Positions 2,805 through 61,980 of a stretch of DNA of 64,000 bases are shown piece after piece. The DNA comes from Dysidea avara (taxonomy: Eukaryota; Porifera; Demospongiae; Dictyoceratida; Dysideidae). Where the stretch lies: the NCBI RefSeq assembly GCF_963678975.1, contig NC_089273.1, positions 32,612,973-32,676,972 of the forward strand. Direction: 5' to 3'. Each line of letters begins with the position of its first letter. Positions within the stretch are counted from its first letter, which is position 1. Both the position numbers and the translations under genes were made by a program. The notes beneath the pieces are model-generated. The model worked only from the letters and a program-made list of their open reading frames with translations, did not search any database and was not told where the DNA came from.

Positions 2805-4035
2805 CTCTTTGACTACATGGTGAATGGTTTGTAGCTAAAATCACCACATGGTGGCTTATTTCTAGCTGAAACACTCAACAAAATATAGCTGAATTCTCTC
2901 CTGTTTCCAGCTGATCTCTCTACTGGAAGACTTGTTTCTGGCTGACCTCTCTACAAGGTGATTTGTTTCTAGCCAATCTCTACAGGGTGAATTGTTTCTA
3001 GCTGATCTTTCTACAGGGTGAATTATTTCCAGCTGCGCTCTCTATAGGATGACCTGATTTAGATGATCTCTCCACAGGTGACTTGTTTCTAGCTACATTC
3101 TCTACAGGGTGACTTCAAATGTAGTTGAACACTCTACTAGGTAGGGACAGATCCAGGAGCTGGCAAGGCGAAGGGCACAAACAAGCTAAGTTATAGGTGG
3201 TTGGAGAGAGCAGATTCTCTTGTATTTTTAAAGTAGCAAATAATCACCTCTTAGCATTGTCTTACATCTTATTTTGCAATTTTGTCCTTTGTGAAGTATT
3301 AAAAACTGTTTTAAAGGCTAGAATGTCCAGCAACACGATAATTATTTTAGAGGCGCTTAGTATGCACGAAGGTGCTGGGTGACAGTCTGATAGTTGCTTT
3401 TGCTTGTTTTAGGTGAGTTTGCAATAAATGTTAGCAATTTGTACATATTATTATGTAGCTATGTATATTATAGACTGATAAGACTTAGTATTTCAATCAA
3501 AAGAAGTATGTCTCCTTCACAAAGTGTGTGTGTGTGTTGGGGGGGGGGGGGGGGGGGGGGGAATTCATCCTGGATCCACCATTACTAGATGACTTGATCC
3601 AACTGAGTTCTCTACAGGGTAATTTGTTTTTGGCTGATCTCTCTACAGGGTGATTTGTTTTCAGCTGATCTCTCTACATGGCTGCATGCTTGTACTGAAC
3701 TCTCTACAGGATGACTTGAAAAATAGTTGAACTCTTTGCAGGTAACAGGGTAACTTAATTTCCTAACTAATCTCTCTACAGGGACTGTGCAGGGTATAGC
3801 TGATCTTTCTGCTGAGAGATTTGTTCACATGATAGCTGGATTCTCCATGGGGTGACTTGAAAAGTAGTTGGGCTCTTACATGGTGACTTTATCATGCTAG
3901 TCTCTCTACAGCCTCACTTTACAAGTTGCCTTGTTTCAAGCTGATCTCTCTATAGAGTGATTTTTTCTAGCTGATCTCTCTACAGCGTGATTGTTTCTAG
4001 CTAATCTGACTTATTTCTAGCTGAGCTCCCAGAGA
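2805..4035 (-). repeat. 31-bp minisatellite array, copy 2, interrupted
   Basis: Units read TAGCTGATCTCTCTACAGGG plus TGACTTGTTT, the reverse complement of the array unit at 39.6 kb. The array occupies about 2805-3142 and about 3590-4030, with an inserted element between. Many units are substituted, so this is an old array. Confidence 0.8.
3143..3582. mobile_element. hAT-like insertion with a 23-G tract
   Basis: The array is broken by a sequence beginning near GTAGGGACAGATCCAGG and ending TCCTGGATCCACCAT, whose ends are inverted around GATCCAGGA. Flanks share TACTAG, a partial target duplication. Inside, a (GT)n run leads into 23 consecutive G (3539-3561). The right part, with CAATCAAAAGAAGTA then TCTCCTTCACAA, resembles 62440-62480, so the family has a second copy there. 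Short ORFs inside are not convincing genes. Confidence 0.5.
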
Positions 4036-15034: not shown

Positions 15035-16078
15035 TACAGAACACTCTACACGGTGGTTTCTTTATAACTGAACACTCTACAAGGTGACTTCTTCTAGCTG
15101 ATCTCTCTACAGGGTGAATTGTTTATAGCTGAACTATCTATAAGGTAATTTCTTCTAGCTGATCTCACTACAGGGTGATTTGTTTGTAGCTGAACTATCT
15201 ACAAGGTAACTTCTTTTAGCTGATCTTTCTACAGGGCAATTTGTTTGTAGCTGAATTTTCTACAGGGTGATTTGTTTGCAGCTGAACTCTCTACATGGTG
15301 GTTTCTTTGTAGCCAAAACTCTCTACAAGGTAACTTCTGCTAGCTGATGTCTCTACAGGGTCACTGGTTTGTAGCCGAACTCTCCACATGGTGGTTTCTT
15401 TGTAACTGAACTCTCTACAAGGTGACTTCTTCTAGCTGATCTTTCTACAGGGTATTTTGTTTGTAGCTGATTTCTCTACACGGCGATTTGTTTGCAGCTG
15501 AACTCTCTACATGGTAGTTTCTTTGTAGCTGAACTCTCTACAGTGTAACTTCTTCTAGCTGAACTCTCTACAGGATGACTTGTTTCTAGCTGATCTCTGT
15601 ACAGGGTGACTTGTTCCTAGCTGAACTCTCTACAGATGATCTGTTTGCAGCTGAACTCTCTTACAGGATGGTTTCTTTGTAGCTGAACTCTCTACAAAGT
15701 GACTTCTTCTAGCTGATCTATCTACAGGATGACTTGTTTCTAACTGAACTCTCTACAGTGTGATCTGTTCATAGCGGAACTTTCTACTGGGTGATTTGTT
15801 TGCAGCTAAACTCTTTACATGATTGTTTCTTTGTAACTGAACTCTCTACAAGGTAACTTCTTCTAGCTGATCTCTCTACAGGGCAATTTGTTTGTAGCTG
15901 AATTCTCTACAGGGTGATTTATTTGAGCTGAACTCTCTACATGATGGCTTCTTTGTAGCTGAACTCTCTATTAGGTACCTTCTTCTAGCTGATCTGACTA
16001 CAGGGTGACTTGTTTGTAGCTGAATTCCCTACAGAATAACTTGCAATGAAATATAACTGAGTAAATTATAAATGCAGC
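15035..16078 (-). repeat. 31-bp minisatellite array, copy 3
   Basis: About 33 units of TAGCTGAACTCTCTACA then AGGTGACTTCTTC and the TGTTTG variant run in minus orientation. The array starts after the inverse of the TTCTGTAATAAATAT phrase (15028-15046). Two unit classes, ending CTTCTTC or TTGTTTG, alternate irregularly. This implies higher-order pairs of about 62 bases. Confidence 0.9.
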
Positions 16079-25494: not shown

Positions 25495-25700
25495 TGTCAC
25501 GATTTTGGCAACCTCTCAACGAAATGAACTGGAACAAGCCAACGATATTCACACCACTTAGCACTTCAAACCACTCAAACGTGTTAATCGCTTCAACTGA
25601 TAACTTACACACACATGTGACAGCATTACACAATTCATTACATCATTGAATAAACCTAGCCTAACCTAATTACAAAACCAAAGATAAAATAAATGTCACA
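25495..25700 (-). repeat. 3' LTR of BEL element
   Basis: Ends TG...CA on the minus strand. It is preceded (minus strand) by the polypurine tract AAAAACGGGGAT (inverse at 25701-25714). Contains an AATAAA-type signal on the plus strand only. Compare the 5' LTR at 35358-35573. Confidence 0.95.
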
Positions 25701-25771
25701 ATCCCCGTTTTTGAGGCAACACAGTTGATCAAACATCTAACTACATAATTATAATTACAAAACATAAAAGT

Positions 25772-27697
25772 TCATTCACCAGGCACTGTTGAGTTCTTGA
25801 CTTCAACTGGGTACAGGTGTAAAATACTTCGTTTCAACAAACGTGTTGGCGTATCACCACTGCCTACACGTACCAATGCTGCTCTAATCTTGCCATCTCT
25901 TCCAACAATCAGCTCTTCCACAAGTCCCAGTTTCCAAAAGGCTCTCTTTGTGCTATCATCCTTCAAAACAACAACATCTCCAACAGTGACTTCCATAGAA
26001 GTTCCAGTTCATCGTGAATTTACTCGATGTGATTCCCTCAGTCCTGTCAAGTATTCTTTCCTCCATTGCTTGGTAAACTGGTTCAACAAGTGTCTCTGTG
26101 TCTTGTACCTCTTGGTGAGTGTTTCATGTGTACTGGATAAATCAAAATGACTGTCATTCGGTTTTTCAGCAATCCGTCGTCCATAAATCAGGTGGGATGG
26201 AGAAAGAGTATAGCTGATTCCATCAACATCATCCTGTACATAAGTGAGGGGGCCAGCATTGATGAATGCCTCAACTTCAATAAGGAGGGTTTGTAACTGA
26301 TCATAAGTTAAACTGGTATGACCCACAGTCTTTCTAAGACATCTCTTCACTCCTTGTACCATCCTCTCCCAAAATCCTCCCCACCATGGTGCCTTCTCAA
26401 CCATAAAACTCCATGTAATTCGATTATTGGTCAAGTATTGACTTATCTCCTTTGACCTAGAAATCTTGATCAGTTCTTTAGGTGATGACTGAAAGGTTTT
26501 AGCATTATCAGACATCAAGGTTGCTGGCAGCCCTCGTCGACTGGCAAATCTTCTTATAGCCAATAAAAAAGAATCTACTCCCATATTTGGGGTGAGCTCA
26601 AGATGAATAGCCCTCGTCGACGTACAAGTAAACAGACATATGTATACTTTCTCACTGACATTCTTCTCTGAAATATACAGGGGTCCAGCAAAGTCAACAC
26701 CTGTGTGAGTAAATGGCGGCCGGTCTGAAATTCGTTCATTTGGTAAGTCTGGTGCTGTAACTGAAGAGTATGATGGTCCCTCAAGCTTACAGCAAACAGT
26801 GCAAGACTTTACAACTCTTCTGACGACTTGGCATCCCTTCAGGATCCAAAAACGTTCTCGTAAATAAGTTAGAGTATCTGCAACACTACTATGCTTTACA
26901 TTCTGATGAGCCCACAAAACCAACAGTTGTACAAAATAATCATCATGTGGTAATATAGCTGGTTTCTTGCTCAGTAGAAACAGAGACGAATTGTTGAGTC
27001 GACCTTTACAACATAAAACTTCCTGGTTATCTAAAAACAGCCCAAATTGCTTCACTAGTAGAGGACACGGACCTAAGCAAGAACAGAAATATTGGATTTC
27101 ACGAGCAAAAAAACTACGTTGCACAGACTTAATCCATAATATCTCTGATTGATTCATTTCACTACGAGATATGAAAGGATCAAATGATTCGGTTTGTTTC
27201 CTGCACTTCTTAATGAACTGAATCACATAAGAGGTTACACGCAATAATCGATTTAAGCCTCCAGATTTCTTGCAATCAATCAACTCCTTAATAGACTGAC
27301 ACACAAAGGTTGAACTCATGGAGACCAAGGAAAGGGTAATTGGGGTTATGTTCTTTACCATCTCTATCTGCGCTTCATGATTGAGGTCATACACTTCAAT
27401 GGTTGGCCAGGTTGTAGTTGATTCACTCAGGAAGTCCGGTCCTTGCCACCACAATACTTGGTCAATCAACTCTGAAGCCATGGTGCCCCTTGAAGGCAAA
27501 TCAGCCGGATTTAATCTTCCAGGACAATGTCTCCACAACTCTCGATCACTAAGCTGACGGATCTCATCAACTCTGTGTTGCACGTACTGTTTCCATACCT
27601 TGTCATTACGGATCCAACAAAGTGCAGTCATGGAATCCACTCAAAAAAACTGACCTTTGAGATTAGAAATCAAGCCTTGGACAACCTTAGTAAGCCT
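25772..27697 (-). pseudogene. BEL integrase, near-intact
   Basis: A single frame runs through RNase H tail features (MTALCWIRNDK, CPGRLNPADLPSRG), the integrase zinc finger (AHQNVKHSS then SCTVCCK), and the catalytic core with HTGVDFAGPL (Asp), LMSDNAKTF (Asp) and EKAPWWGGFWERMV (Glu). It ends in a C-terminal [18 protein letters not shown] module. TGA stops interrupt the otherwise unbroken frame at about 27641-27643 and 26009-26011. Confidence 0.92.
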
Positions 27698-29028
27698 CTA
27701 AAGAATCAATGCTCCCAATAGCTCAAGTCGTGGAATTGTTTGTTTCTTAAGGGGAGCAACCTTGGTCTTGGATGCTACTAATCTCACTGATACACTTCCA
27801 TCAGAGTAGAGAGTTCTTAAGTACAATACAGCCGCATAGGCATGTTCTGAAGCATCACTGAACCCATGGAGCTCAAGTCTTTCTGGGCGCTTCCCTAATT
27901 CAAAATAACATCTGGGTACCACAACCATATTCAAGGTATTCAAGCTCTCTAATAATTGATTCCACCTCTGAGCTAGGTCTGGGGGGAGAGGATCATCCCA
28001 GTGGGACTTGTTAACACAAAGCGTTTGAAACATTACCTTCAGAAGAATAACAAACGGACTAAGAAAACCCATTGGATCAAAAATGGCAGCAGTCACATGC
28101 AGTACTGTTCATTTGTTGGATGGCAAGCCTCTTGCATGAGCCTGTAAATCCCCAAAGCAGAATCTAAATTCATCAGGCTCATGAAACCATTGAATTCCAA
28201 GTAGCTTGTCTGGCTCAGGTTCTAATCCCTTCACCCTGTCAACCTCCAATTTGGATTTCTGATTATTTTGCTCTGATTTAATCATTGCTAACAAAGAAGG
28301 AGAATTGGAATTCCATTTGCGCAAGTTAAAGCCACCATCTGACATCACTGATTTAGCTGTCTTGTATAACTTAAAGGCATTACCAATAGTATCAGCCCCA
28401 GCAATGAGATCATCAACATACAAGGACCGCTCTATACACTGGCACAGTTCAGGCTGACTGTCATGGTACTTATGAGTGTGGTGAGCAACTACAGCTCCTA
28501 GAATGGCTGGTGATGGTCGCAGCCCAAAAACTAAACGGGTAAATCTAAATTGAACGACTTCACTATCTTCACGGTGAGGGTCCTTGAACCAAAGAAAACA
28601 CAACATGTCTCTGTCAGACTCACAAATGCCAATCATGAGAAAGGCCTTCTCTATATCTGTGGTTAATGCTATCAAATGATTACGAAATCGTACCATAATG
28701 TCAAATAATCTGGGAATAAGGTTAGGCCCTGTTTGTAAGCAATCATTCAAAGACATTCCAGACTCTTTTGATTTGGCAGATCCATCATATACTACTCTGA
28801 CCTTAGTAGTGCTCCGCCCTTTCCGTATAACAGGATGGTGGGGCATTTAATGAATAGAACCCTTCTCCTTGTTAGTTTGTTGCATGGGGACTCTCTCAAT
28901 TATACTTCTTTCTAACTGATCTTGTATAATGCAATCATATTCATGAAGAATGCCAGGATTCTTAAGCAACCTTTTATGAAGTAATTTCAAACGACTAAAA
29001 CAAGGATCACGATTATCAGAAAGCTTAA
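27698..29028 (-). pseudogene. BEL reverse transcriptase and RNase H
   Basis: RT reads MPHHPVIRK, RVVYDGSAKS, DIEKAFLMI (first catalytic Asp), FRFTRLVFGLRPSPAIL and the catalytic SLYVDDLIAG. RNase H starts near FDPMGFLSPFVILLK and has ELHGFSDASEHAYAAVLY. All pieces share one frame with point stops at 28847-28849 (TAA), 28109-28111 (TGA) and 27698-27700 (TAG). Its upstream continuation lies beyond the MITE at 29721. Confidence 0.93.
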
Positions 29029-29030
29029 TA

Positions 29031-29720
29031 TGTGACTGGATTTTGGAAAAACAATCCAAATCGCACATTAGAAGTTTCGAGATAAATGGTTTTAAAGAAT
29101 TGAAGCCAGCATAACTCTCCAAGGATAGCAAGCACGCGCATGAAATTTACACAAAAGATGCATCAATCTGTTAACTTTCAAGCCACTTCCAGTACTTGTA
29201 GCTGCTTGTACAGTTTCCCGCCAAATAAGATAGAAAATCTGAGCAGTTGGACGAGCGAAGTAGTATCACGAGTGCTCACAAAGGGGTGGAGGCTGGGGGG
29301 TGGAGGCTGGGGGGTGGAGGCTGGGGGGTGGAGGCTGGGGGGTGGCGGGGAGGGCAAAAGATAGGCCTCAAAATGGAGGCAGACCACGATTGGAGTCCAG
29401 ACACGAGATTACAGGGCTGTGCTGGCTCCTTAGTGGCTGATATGTAGCAAAATCTACAGAGAATACGTCTGGCCAACATTATAAGGCTGTTCACCAGTAA
29501 ACCACTGATTCTTGCCAAGCCAGGTCCTTCACAAGGCCTGAAACCGCCATTTGGGCACTCCACACCACCCAGAAAAGACGTCTACTAAAACCAGCCTCGT
29601 GTAGTTTGAGTAGTGCTGAGGGTCAAAACTTGTAGTACGATAGTGTAGCTATCCACTGGTGGTGTTACTATGATTTTGCCTGATGTGCGATTTGGTTCGG
29701 TTCTGTAAAATCTGGTCACA
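29031..29720 (-). mobile_element. 648-family MITE copy C, 690 bases, inside BEL RT
   Basis: TGTGAC termini are flanked by TA on both sides (29029-29030, 29721-29722). It is longer than copies A and B by 42 bases, exactly three extra units of the 14-mer GGTGGAGGCTGGGG at about 29284-29345. Removing it with one TA reconnects the BEL frame, so it jumped after the BEL element landed. Confidence 0.95.
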
Positions 29721-30461
29721 TATGGTCCCCTATCCAAGGTAAGCCTACCTCATAGCGATTGTCCTTAAAACCCTTGTAAAAAAATGTCATCTGAAGGGGC
29801 ATTCTCAATACATCAATACCAAGAGTCTCAACTTCCCAAAATTTCTTAAGAGCAGTAACAAGTTGGTTATCCTGGGATTCAGAAGAATTCGATTCATTAA
29901 AATAACTAATAGCAAGATTGGAATGAGTATGGGCCAATTCCTCAGTAACAGCAGTCTCAGCAGGTCCTGATATAAGCCAACCCAATGTACTACAAACAGC
30001 TATAAGTCCTCTTTCAGTACGAATAATCTCCCCGGTCACAACGGACCAATAGAAGTCTGAGCCTACGAGAATGTCAATATGGTTCTGCCTGGTGAGACCT
30101 CGCAATCAGTCAATTCAAGCTCATTCAACACGGGGTAAGCACTAAGGTCAACAGGACTGGGTAGTGCAGAGCATATAGTTGGAAAGCTTAATGCATTAAT
30201 ACAATACAAGTTCTCACTCCCAGGTTTCCGCAAATACACTCTAACAACATCACAACTCTGCGTTTTAAACTCACTATCACCAAAGGTGTTGAGGTTGAGC
30301 TTCTCCTTTCTGATGGGTGATAATCCCAGTCTTGACTTCAAAGAGTCTGTGATGTAGGAACGTTGGCTACCATTATCAAAGAGTATCCTCACATTCTCAA
30401 TGCTGGTTCCACTTCCATTAGTAGCTTCGCCTGTGCGGTCTGTAGTAAAACCAATTGCCAT
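29716..30461 (-). pseudogene. BEL protease and linker to RT
   Basis: ENVRILFDNGSQRSYI carries the DNGS form of the aspartic protease loop typical of BEL (peptidase A17-like). IDILVGSDFYW and GLIAVCSTLGWLISGP follow, and the region ends in NRYEVGLPW, the start of RT, where the MITE interrupts. One frameshift lies near 30080. Confidence 0.9.
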
Positions 30462-30559
30462 CTCTTCACAGTGTTAATAGTATTGGCAGTGGTGTCTTCA
30501 ACTGGTGTAACCTGTTCCACATTATGGTCACGTTGGTTTGTTGTTTGTGGTTCACACAA

Positions 30560-31755
30560 GGACTGGTGGTGTCTACGATGACAATAACAACAGTTTCTGT
30601 GAGATTCACAGTCCCGGGCCTATGATTAGACTTCTAACAAACAAAGCATCTCCCCATTCTTATTAAGACTTCCTTACGATCTTTCACACTGACTACCTTC
30701 TTACATGAAGCTGAGTAATGTGCCTCACCACAATACACACTTTTGACAGTGTAGTTATTAGTTACTAAAGAGTTGGCAGTAGGATTAAAGCCACCAACAT
30801 GTGTCTTAGGGTGAACAACACTCTTCTGTGATAAGATTCTGGCCCCTTCACTAGTTTCCCTGGCTTCAACTTCTTTAAGAATAGTGCTCATCAGGTGATT
30901 AATCTCCCAGGTTTCCTCTCGATTCTCTCTAGCCACTCTTAGACGCACTCCATCTGGTAACTTGGACATGAGGACAGGAATGAGTACACTGCCATACTGG
31001 GTAGTCTCAATGCCCAGGGATTTCAACCCACGTATATGAACCATCATCTTGTCATATAACCGTCTCTAAGGCTAGGTACGATCTACAATACAAGCAGGAA
31101 GTCTGAAGATTTCTTCCATATGGGTAGCAATAATCTGTTTAGTGTTGCCAAATCTCTTCTTCAATAATTCTATAGCTGAATCATAGTTGGCTTCTGTTAG
31201 ACTGAGCCCTTGAATGGTTAAGGCAGCAGCACACTCAAGCAAAGAATGCAGGTAATTGAACTTGTCAATTTTTGATATTTCGCTGTTTTCGTGAACTGCA
31301 GACTTAAATGAATCCCAAAAGGATACCCACGCGGTGACATCACCTTTGAACTTAGCCAAACTCAATTTGGGTAGACGCGTTTTTGCAACAGCTCCAGGTG
31401 GTGATGCAACAACAACAGCTGGGGTGGTACTAACTGTGTGGGGTGCGACAGACGGCGGTTGTAAGGCTACGTCAATTCGACGCTTATAGTCCATTATCTT
31501 GGCTACCACAATTTCAGCATCATTTACCTCTATTTCAAATTTTTCCAATGAACACAGGTTCAAGATATCACGATTAAGGGTCTGTAATGTCTGTTCCTTA
31601 GCATTTAACTGTTGTCGTATCACGATTAAACGGTCGATCTGTTCAGTGGTTAGTGGTTCTGTGGCCGTTAGAGTGTCGGTTTCTTTAGTTAGCTTCGTTA
31701 CGACTCCACGGTGTGATCCTCTAACGGTCTTCAATCAATCCAAGTTTTCACTCAT
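30560..31755 (-). pseudogene. BEL Gag with zinc knuckles
   Basis: An ATG near 31755 (MSENLD, then TGA) opens Gag. RLPKLSLAKFKGDVTAWVSF and SALLECAAA-like text is characteristic of the BEL Gag (DUF1759-like) capsid. The C-terminal knuckles CFVC and CCYCHRRHHQSLC lie at about 30560-30650 with a frameshift between them. Stops at about 31730 and 31072 and the frameshift make it inactive. Confidence 0.88.
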
Positions 31756-31828
31756 GCTTGCTCTCGATCTCTACGGCGTGAATGAATCTAAAAATAAAAC
31801 TACGAGAATACACAGTTCAGTCTTATCA

Positions 31829-34800
31829 TTTTTTTTTCCCGGGCTTGATGGACTGCCCTTGCCTACCACCCCCAGCACATAAATGGCCTGTGCTGGACAA
31901 ACCGGGACTTTCTTAGTACACGGCAAACTGAGACTCTGCCCGAATCAGCTCCACAATTGGGGGAGTCTTAACATAGTGACCGATGGATGAGCGGGCTCCG
32001 CGGATGCATTGTAAGGAGGACTGCAAGAGAGAGAAAGATAGACAGCACCTTAACCACCCCATGACAACAGAGTAATCATCGCCCCACTTATTTGAAAGTT
32101 GACGAACCAAGCGTTGATAGAAAAACAGACGCCTCATGAGCCAGACCACCAGAGGCAGACATTACCAGGGGGGTAAAAGAGGCATGCTCCTCCTCACGAA
32201 TTCTCTGAGCATACGCACGTTTCTTAATGTTCTCGTGCCTCCGATAACAGAAGACCAGTGATGAGGATGCATTAGTAGCAGCCAGAGAGTTGAACACCCG
32301 CACATCCACAAAACATCTTTCACTTCTTCCACCCCAAAAACCATTCATGGCGATGTCAATACGGGCACCATCTTGGATATTGGCAGAAGCAGGGTAGTCC
32401 AGCTGTGAAACCGGCTGGAGCTCTGGTTCAACAGCTACCTGAGAGCATACTTCAGTCAACAGGGTAGCAGTTAGATCTCTGATCTCATTGTGTCGGATAG
32501 AAGGCAAGCCACCCTTGGGACAGGATAAAGCATGCTCCACTGAAAAGGAAGTCCCACATGCACAGTGAGCAGGAGTCCGCTGAGGAGACCACCCATAACG
32601 TAGTGCTACGGCATCATGAAACGCGGACTTATGCAGTGCAAAGCCATGTTCCTGTAGGGGCCGGGTGGTAAGCCAGTTGGTGGTCCCTTTGGCTGAGGCT
32701 AGATCTAAAGCGCGTTGAGAGGAGGGATCCAAGTGGGTACGCAAACTGGAAGATCTATCCGAATAGTTGGAAGATTTGGAATTGCGGATTGCGGACTTGC
32801 GAGATAGCTGTTCTGTTTTAACAATAGCCGAATTGGTACTCCGGTCCAGAATGAATTGTGAAAGAGGCTCAGTAATGTGACACGAGGCTGAATACTCCTC
32901 AGCTGCAATAAGAGTTGGGTTTATGATACCCAAACCACCATATCGAGGTGGAAGGGCAAATAACTTACGGATTGTGTCATTTGGTGGAGAGCATCCCATC
33001 AAAGTAGGGATAAGTACCAGCCGGATGTTGTCCTCAAGGGGTTGTAAAGCCTCTGATATGTTTGGAGTAGTGCGACAAAGATAGAGCCAATGGCTTGACA
33101 AGCCATGAGTGAGAGCGGAATAAGCAGCATGCGGCTGAACTTGTGCGAACTTGGCAAGTCGTGTAATCTCTGCTGACCAACCAACAACCTTGTCCCTCAC
33201 AAATTCCTGGACATAAGCGTTTGAACCAATGGCAGCCCCAAGATAGGAACGGCCTGCGGAAGTAATTTGAACATCAGTATCTGAGAACAGAGTAGTAGCA
33301 ATTGAATGGAACCTTTCCTCAGAAACTAACCAAGTTTTAGGAGCATTCACAAAATAGCCAAAAGCAGGTCCCTTAATACAAAGCTGGTTCCACCAGATGA
33401 GCAAGTCCTGTATACTGCCACAAGCACAAGCATCATCAGCATACCAGACCTGGTCCACTGTCCCATGAAGTTGATTGATTAAAGGCACTGTAGCAAGGGC
33501 ATACATAGGCATAGCTAGTGGGTCTCTCTGTGTAGTACCCTCCTCTGATAAAATAACCTCCCCAGAAACAAGCAAAGAGGCTGGAGACCTATAAATATTG
33601 ATCAGAATAGTGGAAAGTGGCGGGCACAGTTGTCTGATGTTGTGTAGAGCCACCAAACTGTTCAGCGAGTTAAAGGCATTGGAGGCGTCCACCAGCAACA
33701 CAGCCTCAGTGCTTCCTTCCTCAAAAACCTTTCGGACAGCATGAACCGCAGCCTCCACCCCAGAGAGTTGCCCTGCACAAAGTTGGTGTGAACCGGCTGC
33801 CTCCTGAATGTCATCCCGCAGGATGACTAGCACAGCCTTAGCAACAATACGTCTCATAACCTCGCACACACCAATAGGCCGCACCCCAGGACTTTTATCC
33901 AAAGCAATGAGGCGACACACCAAAAAAGGCGAAAGCAAATCTGGGGAGAGGAAAACAGTACATAAACAACGAGCAAATGAGGACATTGCAACACACAATT
34001 CACCTGTAGCAGAGTGAAATGAGGTACAAAGTCGACGCCAACCACGAGCGTCTATCCCAGAGGGTCCTGCCGCACCAGGTGTTCGCAAAGCAGCAGACCT
34101 GATAACAGCAGCATTAAGAGAAGAGAATATAACAGAGTGTACGGATGGTGGGTCAGCCCAATGCTGTAGAAGACACTTAGGATCCAAAGGCTGAGCTGGA
34201 GGATGTTTAGCCCGCAGAACATCGCGAACATAAAGGCCAGGAGAAGCAGAATCAGCTATCTCACTCAAGTTTAGAACTCCACCACATTGGTAACCTGAAA
34301 CTAATCGTAAAGCAGCCTTGGTTTTACCCTCAAACATTAGCTTAGAAAAGTTACGTACAAGTTGTGCCTCACTTGGTTTTGGCAAATGTCTCTTGAGACG
34401 ACCCTGTATAGCTCTTTCCTCAGCAACCAGTCCAAGTAGATTCCCATCCCTCCACTGTTTCAGCCGCTGCTCCAATAGGAGAGTGTGATCCTTGTCCTTA
34501 GATGTGCGGCTACGTTTCTGGAGCAGCAATATACAAACCACAACAATAGCCTTAAGGGAAGAACCCTCACCTACAGCACGAAACAAACGAGCCAGTTCAA
34601 GTACAAAAGCCTTACCAGCTGAACCCTGTGGAACTGCAAAACTGTTCTTCTTCCAATTTATCACTTCTAAATAAACTTTATCCAATTCTGAGATAAAACA
34701 GCTTCCATCAAGATTCCCCCACTGAAAGTTAGGCTGAACTACAGGTTGAAAATCAGGTAGGTCAACAACTGACGAATTGTTCATTAAAATGTCGTTGGAG

Positions 34801-35250
34801 TTGTTAGAAGTCAAGTAGGGGGCGTTAGGTTCTTCCTCCTCGTCAACCTGTGCGACGGATGAGGGTCTTGCCTCCCGGAGAATTGAACTCTGTGGATCCA
34901 AACTGGCCCTCGAACTGGCCTGGAGTGTCGCATTTGGTTCAAAACGGCAATAACGCCTGCCTATCTCATCACGATAAGACACCAAAATATTTGAAATGGG
35001 CTGGTCTTGGTAGCAAATGGTTGTCTTCCAGTTCTTAGAAGAAGCTTTACCCGCTTTGCTTTGAAGGTCACATGGAGTCAAAAGGTCCCCATTGACCCGA
35101 ACACAACGACTGGTGCCACTGGACAGTTCCTTGGTTATCAACTTCGCTTGCAAAGTCCCACATACTATGTCGACGGCCTCCAGAGTTGAGCGACTCTCCG
35201 GAAAACCAGGGAGAAAATCGACCATTACGATTCGTTGAGCACAACGTCAC
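31829..35250 (-). mobile_element. Full-length non-LTR retrotransposon with SAND-RT ORF
   Basis: The 9-base duplications TGATAAGAC (minus strand; 31820-31828 and 35251-35259) flank a 3422-base element with a 25-base 5' leader, one long ORF, a 3' UTR of about 250 bases and a nine-A tail (31829-31837). It sits between the primer-binding site and Gag of the BEL element. The exact ends, tail and intact ORF indicate a complete and young copy. Confidence 0.95.
32088..35225 (-). CDS. SAND-RT-CCHC-endonuclease polyprotein of non-LTR element
   Basis: The 1045-residue ORF is uninterrupted. Residues about 18-90 form a SAND domain: VDIVCGTL, SGTSRCV, LLTPCDLQSKAGK and the DNA-contacting KNWK at 64-67. 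An acidic linker (129-132) follows. RT spans about 380-720: PSGIDARGW, RLIALDKSPGVRPIGV, DASNAFNSL (catalytic D513), EGTTQRDPLAM and YADD at 595-598. A C-X-C-X7-H-X3-C finger is at 888-902. Then RHNEIRD and a restriction-like endonuclease pattern RIDI (D957) ... FVDVRV (D974). CCHC plus RLE is the arrangement of R2/NeSL/CRE-type LINEs. The SAND domain may replace their N-terminal zinc-finger/Myb targeting module. Start chosen: first ATG, 26 bases from the element end. Confidence 0.93.
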   Translation of the reverse strand: MVDFLPGFPESRSTLEAVDIVCGTLQAKLITKELSSGTSRCVRVNGDLLTPCDLQSKAGKASSKNWKTTICYQDQPISNILVSYRDEIGRRYCRFEPNATLQASSRASLDPQSSILREARPSSVAQVDEEEEPNAPYLTSNNSNDILMNNSSVVDLPDFQPVVQPNFQWGNLDGSCFISELDKVYLEVINWKKNSFAVPQGSAGKAFVLELARLFRAVGEGSSLKAIVVVCILLLQKRSRTSKDKDHTLLLEQRLKQWRDGNLLGLVAEERAIQGRLKRHLPKPSEAQLVRNFSKLMFEGKTKAALRLVSGYQCGGVLNLSEIADSASPGLYVRDVLRAKHPPAQPLDPKCLLQHWADPPSVHSVIFSSLNAAVIRSAALRTPGAAGPSGIDARGWRRLCTSFHSATGELCVAMSSFARCLCTVFLSPDLLSPFLVCRLIALDKSPGVRPIGVCEVMRRIVAKAVLVILRDDIQEAAGSHQLCAGQLSGVEAAVHAVRKVFEEGSTEAVLLVDASNAFNSLNSLVALHNIRQLCPPLSTILINIYRSPASLLVSGEVILSEEGTTQRDPLAMPMYALATVPLINQLHGTVDQVWYADDACACGSIQDLLIWWNQLCIKGPAFGYFVNAPKTWLVSEERFHSIATTLFSDTDVQITSAGRSYLGAAIGSNAYVQEFVRDKVVGWSAEITRLAKFAQVQPHAAYSALTHGLSSHWLYLCRTTPNISEALQPLEDNIRLVLIPTLMGCSPPNDTIRKLFALPPRYGGLGIINPTLIAAEEYSASCHITEPLSQFILDRSTNSAIVKTEQLSRKSAIRNSKSSNYSDRSSSLRTHLDPSSQRALDLASAKGTTNWLTTRPLQEHGFALHKSAFHDAVALRYGWSPQRTPAHCACGTSFSVEHALSCPKGGLPSIRHNEIRDLTATLLTEVCSQVAVEPELQPVSQLDYPASANIQDGARIDIAMNGFWGGRSERCFVDVRVFNSLAATNASSSLVFCYRRHENIKKRAYAQRIREEEHASFTPLVMSASGGLAHEASVFLSTLGSSTFK

Positions 35251-35337
35251 GTCTTATCAGTACTTGACCTCTACTGGTGCCGTTTAAATTCCCCAGCACA
35301 AAGGATTCTGCATGTAGGGGGCTTCAGCGAGTCTCGT

Positions 35338-35355
35338 GCCCCACGTTGGGCGCCA
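35338..35355 (-). promoter_or_regulatory. Primer-binding site, tRNA-Lys type
   Basis: Two bases inside the 5' LTR the minus strand reads TGGCGCCCAACGTGGGGC, the 18-base sequence known as the tRNA-Lys(1,2) primer-binding site of several retroviruses. It should prime minus-strand DNA synthesis of the BEL element. Confidence 0.9.
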
Positions 35356-35357
35356 CT

Positions 35358-35573
35358 TGTCACGAATTTGGTACTAATTGACAACCTCTCAACGAAATGA
35401 ACTGGAACAAGCCAATGATATTCACGCCACTAAGCACTTCAAACCACTCAAACGTGTTAATCGCTTCAACTGATAACTTACACACACACGTGACAGCATT
35501 ACACAATTCATTACATCATTGAATAAACCTAGCCTAACCTAATTACAAAACCAAAGATAAAATAAATGTCACA
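35358..35573 (-). repeat. 5' LTR of BEL element
   Basis: 216 bases. Compared with the other LTR it has GGTACTAATTGACAACC in place of GGCAACC, plus five substitutions. It ends at the TCTGC duplication, followed by the continuing Ty3 RNase H frame (35579-35636). Confidence 0.95.
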
Positions 35574-39589: not shown

Positions 39590-41496
39590 CAAGTTATTCT
39601 GTAGGGAGTTCAGCTGCAAACAGTTAATCTTATAGACAGTTCAGCAAGAAGCAAGTCACCCTGTGGAGAGTTAAGCTACAAATATATCACTGTAGAGGTT
39701 CAGAACATTACAAGTCACACTGAAGAGAGTTCAGCTATAAACAAGTCATGCACCCTGTAGAGAGTTCACCTACAATTAAGTCACTCTCTAGAGAATTCAG
39801 CTACACACAAGTCACTGTGCAGAGAGTTCAGCTACAAAAAAAATACCCTGTAGAGAGATAAGCTACAAACAACACACTTTGCAGAGAGTTCAGCTACAAA
39901 CAAATCGACCTTTAGAGCGATCAGCAACAAACAAATCAACTTGTAGAGAGATCAGCTAGAAATAAATCAACCTGCAGAGAGATCAGCTACAAACAAATCA
40001 GCTTGTAGAGAGATCAATTACATACTAATCAACCTGTAGAGAGATAAGCTAAAACAAATCACCCTGTAGAGAGTTCAGCTACAAAAAACCACCCTGTAGA
40101 AACATTAGCTAGAAACTAGACACAATGTAAGGAGTTCAGCTACAAGCAAATCACCCTGTAGAGAGTTCAGCTAAAACAAAACAACCTGCAGAGAGATCAG
40201 CTACACAAATCAACTTGTAGAGGGATCGGCTACAAACAAATCAACCTGCAGAGAGATCAGCTACACACAAATCAACTTGTAGAGAGATCAGCTACACATA
40301 AATTAACCTGTAGAGAGATAAGCTAGAAACAAATCACCCTGTAGAGAGTTCAGCTAAAACAAATCAACCTCCAGAGAGATCAGCTAGAAACAAATTACCT
40401 TGTAGAGAGATCATCTAGAAACAAATCAACCTGCAGAGAGAACAGCTACAAACAAATCTGCATGTAGAGAGATCAGTTACACACAAATCAACCTGTAGAG
40501 AGATAAGCTATAAACAAATCACCCTGTAGAGAGTTCAGCTAAAACAAATCAACCTCCAGAGAGATCAGCTACAAACAAATCACCTTATAGATAGTTCAGC
40601 TACAAACAAATTACCTTGTAGAGAGATTGGCTACAAACAAATCAACCTGCAGAGAGATCAGCTACACACAAATCAACTTGTAGAGAGTTCAGCTACAAAC
40701 AAATCAACCTGTAGAGCGATCAGCTAGAAACAAATCACCCTAAAGAGAGGTCAGCTACACAAAAATCACCTTGCAGAGAGATCAGCTACAAACAAAGCAT
40801 TTTGCAGAGAGTTCAGCTACAAACAAATCAACCTTTAGAGCGATCAGCAACAAACAAATCAACTTGTAGAGAGATCATCTAGAAACAAATCAACCTGCAG
40901 AGAGATCAGCTACAAGCAGATCAGCACGTAGAGAGATCAGTTACACACAAATCAACCTGTAGAGACATAAGCTAGAAACAAATCACCCTGTAGAGAGTTC
41001 AGCTAAAACCAATCAACCTCCAGAGAGATCAGCTACAAACAAATCACCTTATAGATAGTTCAGCTACAAACAAATTGCCTTGTAGAGAGATTGGCTACAA
41101 ACAAATCAACCTGCAAAGAGATCAGCTACAAACAAATCAACTTGTAGAGAGACCAGCTACAAACAAATCACCCTGTAGAGAGATCAGGTAGAAACTAGAC
41201 ACAATGTAAGGAGTTCAGTTACAAGCAAATCACCCTGTAGAAAGTTCAGCTACAATCAAATCAACCTGTAGAGCGATCAGATGGAAAAAAATTACCCTGA
41301 AGAGAGGTCAGCTACAAAAAATCACCCTGTAGAGAGATCAGCTAGAAACAAAATTAATCACCCTGAAGAGTACACACAAATCAACTTGTAGAGAGATCAG
41401 CTACAAAAAAATCACCCTGTAGAGAGATCAGCTAGAAACTAGACACAATGTAAGGAGTTCAGCTACAAGCAAATCACCCTTTAGTGAGTTCAGCTA
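39590..41496 (+). repeat. 31-bp minisatellite array, copy 4 (left part)
   Basis: Roughly 60 units of GTAGAGAGATCAGCTAC then AAACAAATCAACCT. Blocks of several units recur: a block containing ACCTCCAGAGAGATCAGCTA followed by ACCTTATAGATAGTTCAG occurs near 40.55 and 41.03 kb, about 480 bases apart. This suggests recent segmental amplification within the array. Confidence 0.92.
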
Positions 41497-41857
41497 CAGT
41501 ACAGCTCACAGGTAACGTCGCGAGTATACACATGCGAGTAGTGCTCATGTCTTCTCACAGGATTATTCTTTTGCAATGCACTATACAATACCTGTGGATC
41601 ATCGCGTAGATATTCACTAGCCGTGCGAGAAACTCGCCACACATGAGAACACTCGCTACTGAGTTCAGTAACTTCATATATTCAACACTTAAATCACATA
41701 AACATTTGAGACCAGTCCCATACTGTATGTTCGTATCTAGCTAATGTTAGAGTGCAATAAACGCACGCTGGACCAGCAGAACGCAATGGGTGGAATATTT
41801 ACGAAATCGAAATAATCCGTAAATTTTACAGCGCTTGTTTCACAATGAAGGAAAGTG

Positions 41858-44703: not shown

Positions 44704-45171
44704 ATTTTTTGCTGTTACCATTTTGTAGCGCTGTAATTTCGAAACCTCTTGGCTTCTAGAGTTGAAACTTCGGTTGACGATTTCTTAACTATCTAGATAA
44801 AGAAAATATGATTTGAAAAATGCACTAACTGGGGTTCTGTGACATTACTTGGCGACCAATCCATCTAGCTACTGCTAACTACAGTACTGACTGTAGTCCG
44901 TGACAGGTCAAGTCAGTAGCGAAGTGACCAAGTATCCGGTAGCTAAAACACAGGCATTGCAATAGACTTCACAGCCGGCGGAACTGAGCCAGCGCTGCCT
45001 CACAACGCCATAGGAGAGACCTGTTGTCTCGTCTTGCGTGACGCTCTCGAGTAAAGTTAGCTATCATGGAGCATTACTGTAGCCTTGCTGCATCCACGCG
45101 GGTCACTCCAGCGCACCTCACTAGCGTCATGCACGTAAATACATGCGATGTTACTCGTGAGCTGTACTGTA

Positions 45172-45800
45172 CAAACAAATCAACCTGCAGTGAGATCACC
45201 TACAAAAAGCACCTTGTACAAAGTTCAGTTACCCTGTAGAGAGATCAGCTAGAAGAATTCACCTTGTGGACAGTTCAGCAACAAAGAAACCATCATGTAG
45301 AGAGTTCAGCTGCAAATAAATGACCCTGTAGAAAATTTAGTTACAAACCAATCACCCTGTAGAAAGATCAACTAGAAGAAGTTACCTTGTAGAGAGCTCA
45401 GCTACAAACAATTCACCCTGTACAGAGATCAGTTAGTAGCAGTTTCCTTGTAGAGAGTTCAGCTACAAACAAATCACCCTGTAGAAAGATCAGCTAGATT
45501 AATTTACCTTGTAGAGATTTCAGCTACAAGAACCACCATGTAGAGAGTTCAGCTGCAAACAAGCCACCCTGTAGAAAATTCAGCTGCAAACAAATCACCC
45601 AGTAGAAAGATCAGCTAGAAGAAGTTGCCTTGTAGAGAGTTCAGCTACAAAGAAACCATTCTGTAAAGAGCTCAGCTGCAAACAAATCACCTGTACTGAA
45701 TTCAGCTACAAACAAATCACTCTGTAGAGAGATCAGCTAGAAGAATTTACCTTGCAAAGTGTTAAGTTACAAAAAAACCGCCATGCAGAGAGTTCTGTAA
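45172..45800 (+). repeat. 31-bp minisatellite array, copy 4 (right part)
   Basis: Continues the array after the TA element, then ends with AGAGTTCTGTAATAAATAT. Units here carry the CAGCTAGAAGAAGT and AAAGAAACCATCATGT variants as in array copy 1, unlike the left part, so variants are zoned along the array. Confidence 0.88.
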
Positions 45801-51986: not shown

Positions 51987-54900
51987 ATGGAAAAGGCTTT
52001 GAGAGCAGTTATTATTCATAAGTCAAGCATCCGGAGGGCAGCATTGGATTACAGTGTACCAAAGTCTACTCTTGGTGATAGGGTACTCGGCAGAGTTCAA
52101 CCAGGTAGCAGAAGTGGTCCAGAACGACTACTCAGTGATACAGAAGAGGCTGAACTCGTAGCATTTGTGAGACGGTGCTCAGCAATAGGGTACCCAAAGA
52201 CAAGGAAGGATATGATTGAGTTGGTTCAAAGAATTGCACAGAGTAGAGGTGTTGATCGACAGATATCAAATGGTTGGTGGGAGAAATTTTGCACACGGAA
52301 TCCTAGTATTACTTTAAGAGCCTCAGTTCCATTATCCAAGGCTAGAGCTGAAGCCACAGATTCAGAAATCATAGATGGCTACTTTGACCTATTAGAGAAG
52401 ACAATGGCGGAGTATGACTTACTGGACAAGCCATGTCAAGTGTTTAATGCTGATGAAAGTGGCTTCCCCTTAGCACCAAAACCATTGAAAGCAGTTCACT
52501 GTTCTGGAGAACATACAACTCATGCAATCAATTCAGGTAATAAGGCACAGATTACTGTGCTAGCCTGTGTTAGTGCAGGAGGGCATAGTCTTCCATCCAT
52601 GGTTATCTGGGATAAGAAAGTTCTGAGTCCTGAGCTTACTAATGGTGAGATACCTGGCACGATATATGGTCTTTCTGACAAAGGATGGATAGATCAAGAG
52701 CTATTTAAACTTTGGTTTCACCATCACTTTCTACGGTATGCACCAACTGTCAGACCACTTCTTTTATTAATGGATGGTCATTCATCACATTACTTTCCAG
52801 ACACCATACATATGGCTGCTAAAGAAAAGGTGGTTTTATTTGTCTTGCCTCCAAATACCACCCATTTGACCCAGCCCCTTGATAAAGGATGTTTTAGTCC
52901 TTTGAAGGCAAAATGGAGTGAAGTTTGTCATAAATACACTACAACTACTGGAAAGGCTGTCAACAGATTTGTCTTTTCCAAGCTACTGAATGAAGCATGG
53001 AAACAATCCATGTCTACAAGTAACATAATAGGTGGATTTAAGACAACCGGAGTTCATCCAATTGACAGAACTGCCATAACTATTCATCCAAAGGAAACTG
53101 CTGCTAAAGATGAACTAGGTTTCATTCCACTTTGCAGCCCAATGCCTAGTGCATTGGAAAAGCCAAGAAAGCTTCCTACCTTTACTGAAGTGGAACTTGA
53201 GAGATTTCAAGAAAGATATGAATTAGAGGCAAAAAATCCACAAGCCGACAATCGGTACCAACAGTGGGTAAAAATGTACCATCCTGATCAGCAAATACAA
53301 GAACCTGATACCACTAGTAGTACAGTGAAGATGTTAATGCCTGCTCCCACTCCAGCAATTGAAAAGTTCTTTCCAGTGCTGCCTAACCCTGTTTTGCCAT
53401 CAGTCAAGTCAGTATCTTGTGGAAGGGTACTGACCAACTGTGAAAATCTCAAATTTTTGGAAGAGAAAAAACAAAAGAAGGATGAAGAAATAAACAAAAA
53501 GGAAGAGCGAAAAAGGCTAAGGTAAGAGCGGAAGATGCAAAAAGAACAGCAACAATCTGCAAAGAAACAGCAGAGGAAAACTAAAGCAACAGGTTTGGGC
53601 ACAATACAGCGGCATAATGTATTTCGCGGACTGGATTCACGCACTGAGCTGGAAACAGCTTTTAAACAATAATCCAGGCATTATCCATCTCTTGCAACAC
53701 TGGAGACACCACTATTGAGCTACAACTGCTGATACTGCTCTTCCTTACAGGTAAAAAACTAGCGGTGCACTAATTAATTAGAATACACTTACGATACACG
53801 AGTACTAGCAGTGATAAAGCATGGTAGAGGCTATTGTTGTAGCTTAGATGTTTTTCCTTTATTGCATTATCACTAGTGCTAAGGTTGTAGAGATGAGCCA
53901 GTAATAATTCTTAGCAGGGTAGCTAGGTGGCACCGCCCACTAGCGAGGTGATGGGGCTATGCAAATGAACTGACTCATAACTACAGTCCCAACACCAGTG
54001 CTAAATACTGGAGCAGCACAGCTTAGCTACAACAATAGCCTCTATCACACTTTATCACTGCTATAGTACGTTCCTGTTGAGCTACGTTCCTGTTGAGCTA
54101 AACCCTCAAAAACATTTAATAACTTATGGATGCAATTACACACGATCTTGAAATTTGGCTCATCTGTAGTATTGCTTAACCCCCTTAAAATTGTTTCAAA
54201 ATCTTTTTGTTCAAATGTTTGACATAATATTTATGGCCAGTCAAAATTTTCACAATACATTTCCTATGGGGAAGCCTTATAAGTGTAGTGTCCATTACAG
54301 CCCTTTCCTGAACTTGTAATGGAGCCAAACCACACGTGTCTGTTTTTGACACCTTTGCTGTTATCAATAATCATCTGGTTGGCTGAAATGTTAACTCTGC
54401 TGAGAAAAAATCCACTTTGGATTTTTATCTGTTTTTCAGGATCCAGCTCAACGTGAACATACTATAGTACTCGTGTATCATAAGTGTATTCTAATAAATT
54501 AGTGCAAGTGCTAGTTTGTTAACTTGTAAGGAAGAGCAGTATCAGCAGTTGTAGCTCGATAGTGGTGTCTCCAGTGTTGCAAGAGATGGATAATTCCTGG
54601 ATTATTGTTTAAAAGCAGTTTCCAGCTCAGTGCGTGAGTCCAGTCCGTGAGTCCAGTCCGCGAAATACATTAGGCCCAATACAGCAGATAGTATAGATAA
54701 TTTGAATGTCAATTTTCCAATGTTGAATGACTTCATTTAGAGCATTTTGTATGCACTGTTACAGAGCTCTATTATATATCAAAGAATGGCTGTTTGGTTT
54801 GACAGTTAAGCAAAATAATATCCTTCTCCCAAACTACTTTGTACTGCACCTGCATGTAACCCTAATATGTAGTTAAACTGTGTGTTAGTCATTGTGTATG

Positions 54901-60235: not shown

Positions 60236-61980
60236 TGTGATAGACAGTAGATTACCAACTCAATGGAAACATGCATATGTCACACCAGTTTATAAAAAAG
60301 GAGACAAATCAGATCCCAAAAACTACCGTCCAATATCACTAACTTCGGTAATCTGCAAAACCATGGAGCACATCATTGTCAGCCAATTAATGAAACATCT
60401 AGAGTCAACCAACATCTTAACAGATAATCAATTCGGCTTCAGAGAACATCACTCCTGTGAATCACAACTGCTTGTGACTGTCAATGATATAGCCAAAGCA
60501 ATAAACAATAAACTACAGGTAGATTTGGCAGTACTAGACTTCTCCAAGGCCTTTGACAAGGTTGCACATGCTTGACTTCTAAACAAACTGGAGTATTATG
60601 GAGTGAGAGGAAGTTTGCTGGAATGGTTTGAATCATTTCTACACAACAGAACACAGCAAGTAGTAATAGAAGGCCGTTATTCCATATCTTGTGACATAAC
60701 ATCTGGTGTCCCCCTAGGCTCAGTTCTTGGACCTGCCCTTTTCCTAATATATATCAACGACATAACTACAAACATACATAGTGAGTTGCGACTGTTTGCA
60801 GATGACATTTTAATTTATAGGCCTATACACTCACCAAGTGATCAGAAGATTCTGCAGGATGACTTAACTACTCTTATAAAATGGGCAAATGAATGGCAGA
60901 TGGACTTTAATGTATCTAAATGCAACATCTTACAAGTTACCACACACCATACCACCAAAATATTTACATATCAAATGAATGGAGTGCCCTTGAAATCAGT
61001 AGAAAAAATTAAATATCTTGGAGTTTACTTGAACAATAAATTTTCATGGCACGATCACATTGACTACATATGCAACAAAGCAAATCGATTACTTGATTTC
61101 CTAAAGCAAAATTTAGATTCCTGTCATAAACACTTCAAAGAATATGCAATTTCTGCTACCATCTATCGAATATTGTTGTGCCATCTGGGACCCACACCAC
61201 CAAAATGACATTTCTAAACTTGAAATGATTCAACATCGAGCTGCTCGTTTCGTCTTAAATAAGCCTTGGAACAGACACCACCGTGACAGTATCACAGACA
61301 TGTTAAATGAACTAAATTGGCCATCTTTACAAGAATGCAGAAAGCAATCACGCCTCATCCTATTGTACAAGATAGTTAATCATTTATTATTGGTCCCAAA
61401 TCGCTGTCTGCCATCATTAAATCAAACTGCTACCAGAGCCCATCATGATCAGAAATTTAATCATATACAATCTTCAGTAAACACGTATCTCTATTCATTC
61501 CTACCCAGAACTATTCCCCATTGAAACGATCTATGTATCCCAAATCTATCTACCATTGATCTTGAAACATTTAAACAATTAACTACTCCTACTTTATAAC
61601 TGTAACTTAGCACTTATTGTATTTATTGTAACTTAGCACTCACTGTAATTTAGTACTCATTGTAATTCTAGCACTTATTGTAACTTAGCTAAAGTCTTTG
61701 AGCAGGCTGTAGGACCAGGTGTCCTACAGACCTTCAGCACTTGTGCTGTAAAGCATTAATAAATAATAATAAATACCACTTACTGTAATTTAGCACTAGT
61801 TGTAACCTAGCACCTATTGAAACTTAGCACTTATTGTAACTTAGTACTAATCATTATTGTAACTTAAATTATAGGCACTTATGTTATTGTAACTTAAACT
61901 AGGCACTTATGTGTACGTACCTTGTACATTAGCGTAAAAACCCTGTTGGGTGTTTGCTAATCAATAAATAAATAAAATAA
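60236..61980 (+). pseudogene. 5'-truncated CR1/Jockey-like LINE
   Basis: RT text reads LPTQWKHAYVTPVYKKGDKS, NYRPISLTSVICK, DLAVLDFSKAFDKV (first Asp), GVPLGSVLGPALFLIYIND and the catalytic FADD (about 60796-60807). The C-terminal part has YLGVYL and HRAARFVLNKPW. A TGA at 60572-60574 and a frameshift near 61150 break it. The 3' UTR has repeated TGTAACTTAGCACT (at least seven) and AATAAATAA-type tails at 61750 and 61960. The 5' half, including the endonuclease, is missing. Confidence 0.85.

Follow-up and report, generated by a model that had tools for sequence, protein, structure and literature searches.

How does a retrotransposon come to begin its only protein with SAND, a domain that occurs in chromatin regulators and regulators of transcription such as GMEB1, SP140 and SP100, and what might the domain do there? 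The question is raised by a locus of the sponge Dysidea avara, in a stretch of 64,000 nucleotides of contig NC_089273.1 that we analysed as a whole (hereafter the window). On its minus strand lies a long interspersed nuclear element (LINE) with a restriction-like endonuclease (RLE) and a single open reading frame (ORF) that opens with SAND. An initial annotation, made from the sequence alone, had described it as intact and as suggestive of recent or current mobility. We favor, with a probability of roughly 0.7, a reading in which the locus holds a decaying single-ORF RLE LINE whose clade has exchanged its N-terminal nucleic-acid-binding module for SAND.

A LINE open reading frame that begins with SAND

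We searched for homologues with the window ORF and obtained 7,992 candidates, among which 825 were homologues; the best 120 of the 825 were listed and underlie all counts out of 120 below (P numbers denote database proteins). Alignment A1 has 20 rows (19 of the 120 and the window copy) and alignment A2 has 41 (40 of the 120 and the window copy). Alignment A4 and the tree of the reverse transcriptase (RT) and RLE core have 98 rows, that is, 97 of the 120 and the window copy; A4 omits P0004, an apparent fused double, and 22 others, mostly short (the non-short omissions are P0082, P0111 and P0114). The element and its protein-coding parts are as follows.

31829..35250, minus strand: whole non-LTR (long terminal repeat) retrotransposon copy of 3,422 bp, with an A9 tail and flanked by 9-bp duplications
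32088..35225, minus strand: open frame of 1,045 codons, from the ORF list
34941..35177, minus strand: SAND domain, residues 17-95 (Pfam stretch 17-79), by Pfam PF01342 at 8.3e-12 and family profile
34758..34940, minus strand: fast-changing linker from SAND to the LINE body, residues 96-156, with 9-17% identity among P0001, the window copy and P0003
33324..33890, minus strand: RT core, residues 446-634, by Pfam RVT_1 at 9.9e-5, under the curated cut-off in the window copy
33432..33443, minus strand: YADD catalytic motif, residues 595-598, both D present in 98/98 rows of A4
32520..32564, minus strand: zinc knuckle CX1CX7HX3C, residues 888-902, same pattern in 117/120 listed homologues
32211..32495, minus strand: RLE core, residues 911-1005, by a motif found in 100/120 listed homologues and by R2 alignment

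SAND, RT, knuckle and RLE follow one another in one frame. The Pfam match to SAND scores 45 bits against a cut-off of 22, over residues 17-79, the initial annotation having placed the domain at 18-90. A family profile of the N-terminus has the SAND chain of GMEB1 as its nearest match (1.9e-7) and also matches the SAND chains of SP140 and SP100, so that all three resemble the LINE domain significantly in sequence over the core; those proteins are regulators of transcription, whereas in the window clade a retrotransposon enzyme begins with SAND. A structure model of SAND on its own was poor (pLDDT, a model confidence score, of 47.9), and a search with this poor model gave no match at E<=0.001 and no SAND chain among the 50 matches listed. 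The full-length model has strands and helices in the SAND stretch; structure alignments of it list no SAND chain, their rows covering residues 226-1093 and being therefore uninformative on SAND. The identity of the N-terminus as SAND rests on sequence profiles.

The remainder of the protein is that of an RLE LINE: a single ORF with RT and a C-terminal knuckle, followed by an endonuclease with RH, D, D and a distant K..Y. When the ORF was scanned with Pfam, SAND stood above its cut-off but RVT_1 did not; RVT_1 was found in 39/41 members scanned at E up to 0.1. Structure search with a family model retrieves the RTs of R2, LINE-1 and group II elements, the best Foldseek match being R2 (E 2e-17), with R2 chains aligned into the C-terminus. 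The CCHC finger and the D957/D974 pair of the initial annotation can be placed precisely, the former as C888-x-C890-x7-H898-x3-C902, the latter in an endonuclease that also comprises RH at 911-912 (RHN) and K1001..Y1005; one single motif spans all these endonuclease residues in its 100 homologues. The Pfam scan of the window ORF returned SAND and RVT_1 only, and neither zinc finger nor Myb was found.

SAND belongs to a clade and is conserved like the reverse transcriptase

Precomputed Pfam SAND is carried by 3/120 listed homologues, and a search with residues 1-110 of P0001 returned the same three proteins (88 candidates). A search with residues 1-250 of the window ORF, which reaches shorter proteins, found ten (615 candidates). 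In three of them, P0121, P0122 and P0125, the same LINE body comes after Pfam-SAND; in P0129 SAND is present and the protein ends before the LINE body, P0123 has a SAND-like stretch by alignment only, P0126 retains the tail of the domain only, and the other four are without SAND. With the window copy and six database proteins, seven ORFs thus combine Pfam-SAND with the LINE body; they form one clade, and their sources are D. avara, JGI, ENA and one other. The only named entries among the 120 are both from Dysidea avara: P0002, with 92% identity over 74% of the query, which represents a cluster of 178 member sequences (one contig is listed), and P0007, with 87% identity over 60% of the query.

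We computed a second tree, of the N-terminal extension, on 106 rows, for which one A4 row was dropped for length, nine rows from the N-terminal search were added and P0129, where the region is absent, was omitted. Both trees are midpoint-rooted, with no outgroup. In the N-terminal tree the SAND tips all belong to a single group of 15/106 rows with local support 0.918 and zero cysteine-rich tips inside. Six of the 15 tips show no SAND; four of these (P0005, P0006, P0007 and P0124) have late starts and the other two (P0127 and P0128) are ambiguous. P0006 groups with P0122 and P0126, and its lineage therefore had SAND too. The RT-RLE tree recovers the corresponding eight SAND-clade rows with support 1.0, nested in groups of 9, 53 and 67 rows (supports 0.999, 0.984 and 0.895), the larger two of which hold cysteine-rich N-termini.

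Conservation along the protein is uneven. P0001 and P0003 are 68% identical over SAND, but 17% over the linker, 69% over RT and 76% over RLE; for P0001 and the window copy, the corresponding values are 78%, 9%, 81% and 83%. Because a functionless domain would be expected to diverge like the adjoining linker, these comparisons argue that SAND is under constraint, conserved like RT.

These observations bear on the possibility that a host exon encoding SAND was picked up a single time, by the window copy or by its gene model only, and is irrelevant to the life cycle of the element. Pfam finds no SAND in 37/41 members, which at first sight speaks for such an accident; four of these 37, however (P0005, P0006, P0007 and P0021), belong to the SAND clade and have late starts. 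The same domain stands ahead of the same LINE body in seven ORFs from several sources within one clade, it is kept at RT-like conservation next to an unconserved linker, and in the window copy it lies between the target duplications. We reject a single captured exon, as the SAND-LINE set spans multiple lineages, and regard it as highly improbable; it was the case named at the outset as fatal to the idea of a SAND-bearing LINE. Domain order, presence across the clade and RT-like conservation instead bear out an RLE-type LINE with SAND as its N-terminal module.

A cysteine-rich module in the sister LINEs

What stood at the N-terminus before SAND? By pattern, 40/120 listed homologues have a full cysteine-rich module and 9/120 a partial one, next to the 3/120 with SAND; the other 68/120 have neither, and in many of these the predicted protein starts late. 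The pattern of the module is CCxCxxxGxCxxCxC..CxxCxP..C (examples are P0008, P0010, P0022 and P0061), and 15 cysteine-rich pieces share invariant C4, C5, C7, G11, C13, C16, C18, C25, C28, P30, C36 and N38. It has no defensible relative in Pfam (best 0.081) or PDB (best 0.13), and may possibly be an undescribed nucleic-acid-binding domain.

Sister LINEs such as P0010, P0022 and L001 have the same RT-RLE body, at about 50-55% identity to the window copy, but carry the cysteine-rich N-terminus (a variant of it in L001) where the window clade has SAND. L001 (JAAXHO010000193.1, 1-3592) is the sole relative from a pattern search of genome contigs (41 pattern matches), a long LINE relative in which residues 156-1041 are matched, with 53% identity in the best segment and the variant module at L001:80-190. 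The contig is filed under a Poribacteria metagenome-assembled genome and is probably sponge DNA in a Poribacteria bin; no clear element ends were seen in it by eye. Among viral contigs, 26 pattern matches included zero relatives of the LINE.

Since the cysteine-rich module turns up across the tree and SAND only in a single branch, an exchange from the former to the latter is the simplest reading. SAND probably replaced the cysteine-rich module, judging from this distribution; just below the SAND clade, its nearest sister P0009 has neither SAND nor a cysteine-rich module that we could see.

Insertion into a BEL/Pao element

The ends of the LINE and its surroundings comprise the following features.

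31820..31828, minus strand: target-site duplication, 3' side, GTCTTATCA on the + strand (repeat family D17)
35251..35259, minus strand: target-site duplication, 5' side, GTCTTATCA on the + strand (repeat family D17)
31829..31837, minus strand: A9 tail, from the sequence
31838..31912, minus strand: 3' untranslated region preceding the A tail, from the sequence
35226..35250, minus strand: 25-bp 5' leader ahead of the ATG, candidate 5' end, from the sequence
25505..35573, minus strand, as the LINE: decayed BEL/Pao element, host of the insertion, by LTR pair and Pfam

Both flanking duplications read TGATAAGAC on the element strand. A 9-mer repeat within 120 nt of the matching distance (<=120 nt) occurs at 5/8,398 sampled window positions, and one anywhere 3-4 kb upstream at 76/8,398; because such recurrence is rare, a duplication at the tail is unlikely to arise by chance. 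Furthermore, there are five A-runs of 8 or more on the element strand, and only the A9 tail has such a 9-mer repeat 3-4 kb upstream. The duplications and tail of the initial annotation are therefore genuine features of the locus, and a tail with a short target duplication is what target-primed reverse transcription would leave.

The LTR matches of the BEL/Pao element, 35378-35573 and 25505-25700, differ at 5 mismatches in 196 bases (97.4% identical). Pfam matches DUF1759, the DUF1758 peptidase, Integrase_H2C2 and, below cut-off, RVT_1, in frames that are interrupted. By reading of the sequence, the LINE has a primer-binding-site-like stretch on one side and the start of gag on the other. As it is nested inside the BEL/Pao element, the LINE arrived later. 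No second copy of the LINE was found by blastn in the 64-kb window.

The window copy is decaying

The frame is open and damaged relative to the family, at the following places in particular.

31919..32125, minus strand: conserved C-terminal segment of ~70 residues, shifted to another frame, by tblastn of P0001 and P0003 and three-frame reading
34557..34562, minus strand: 5-residue in-frame deletion between residues 222 and 223, by alignment A1 against relatives
33519..33530, minus strand: QRDP in place of the RT motif QGDP, residues 566-569, with G in 96/97 other rows and a gap in the remaining row

A frameshift near residue 1033 displaces the conserved C-terminus. In A4, position 523 reads S where 96/97 other rows have R, the remaining row being a gap. 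Overall, the window copy departs from the family at 12/214 near-invariant columns, two of the 12 stemming from the deletion, and the same column test gives 3, 2, 1 and 3 departures for P0001, P0003, P0010 and P0022. The copy is decaying, not intact, contrary to the initial annotation; the damage also leaves recent or current mobility unsupported for this copy, which would no longer be able to move by itself.

A long open frame amid old repeats might also suggest a domesticated host gene. The A9 tail and 9-bp duplications within a BEL element speak against this, as do the damage to RT and C-terminus and the 178 similar sequences in the P0002 cluster. On insertion hallmarks, damage and cluster size we reject domestication, which seems to us the least credible of the alternatives considered here.

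Relation to known RLE LINEs

R2-type LINEs share the layout found here, with a single ORF, an N-terminal binding module, RT, a knuckle linker and, at the C-terminus, an RLE that carries RH, D, D and K..Y; layout and knuckle spacing are as given in PMC5678591. In that source, the R2-type knuckle is CX2-3CX7-8HX4C, against a tighter CX1CX7HX3C in the window family. By sequence, the RT of the window family is almost undetectable as R2 (best R2 chain E 0.055). R2 has a zinc finger and Myb, whereas the window ORF has SAND and, by Pfam, neither of these. We reject membership in the R2 clade proper: the window copy, a single copy, lies in a BEL/Pao element and not in 28S ribosomal DNA, and Rfam has no hit at gathering score anywhere in the window.

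Utopia and NeSL are RLE LINEs with variable N-termini, among which zinc fingers, a Ulp1-like protease or an extra RNase H before RT are described in passages of PMC4640811. In having variable N-termini they resemble the window clade; SAND is not mentioned in those passages. Utopia targets U2 small nuclear RNA (snRNA) genes. The window copy, again one copy, does not lie in such a gene, Rfam giving no match at gathering score in the 64-kb window, and Utopia is rejected. Because the N-terminal modules of RLE LINEs already vary (PMC4640811), the SAND module is a new variant within a known kind of N-terminal exchange. In the paper listings searched, which excluded Repbase, most subscription papers and preprints, we found no earlier report of a SAND-bearing LINE.

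A possible role of SAND in target choice

How might such an element move? Target-primed chemistry is established for R2-type elements, and their N-terminal modules help to fix the insertion site. The window LINE would have inserted by target-primed reverse transcription: by analogy with R2, its protein would bind its own RNA and the target, RLE would nick the target DNA, RT would copy the RNA from the nick, and a second cut with synthesis would leave the short duplication. The step particular to this clade would be contact of SAND with target DNA or chromatin, in place of a zinc finger with Myb or of a cysteine-rich module. By this analogy, SAND may take part in target binding.

SAND may instead serve another purpose: it may bind the RNA of the element, direct localisation to the nucleus or chromatin, contact protein partners, mediate dimerisation or counter host silencing, and its presence in chromatin regulators would suit several such roles. 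We consider this unlikely, though less so than the alternatives above: SAND occupies the place of the R2 zinc finger and Myb, and [KR]NWK, the counterpart of the KDWK motif through which SAND contacts DNA, is retained in 7/8 database proteins tested. Of the two, we prefer the reading in which SAND would help to bind the target.

A bolder extension is possible, and we put it forward tentatively. Sponges, and perhaps other animals, may harbor a large undescribed RLE LINE lineage with a cysteine-rich module of its own, one branch of which swapped in a host-type SAND that now steers insertion to DNA or chromatin bound by SAND regulators. If true, the swap of one domain would amount to a natural retargeting of a LINE. 

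As a part that seems to be exchangeable, the front end of the LINE enzyme may help to choose the insertion site, and a SAND clade beside a sister lineage with another module, the body being otherwise alignable, is a natural experiment on the evolution of target choice, with both modules and their insertion sites directly comparable in sponge genomes.

Other features of the window

Elsewhere in the window, on the plus strand, a 512-codon open frame at 51987-53525 encodes a DDE_1 transposase with HTH_Tnp_Tc5 and HTH_psq matches, which we take to be of the pogo type. A fragment of another reverse transcriptase lies on the same strand at 60603-61208 (RVT_1 8.4e-16). A related 31-bp tandem repeat (about ACCTTGTAGAGAGTTCAGCTACAAACAAATC) forms arrays on both strands, with up to 62 copies.

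902-1470, 2902-3137, 15039-16043, 39599-41498 and 45170-45795, both strands: 31-bp tandem repeat arrays
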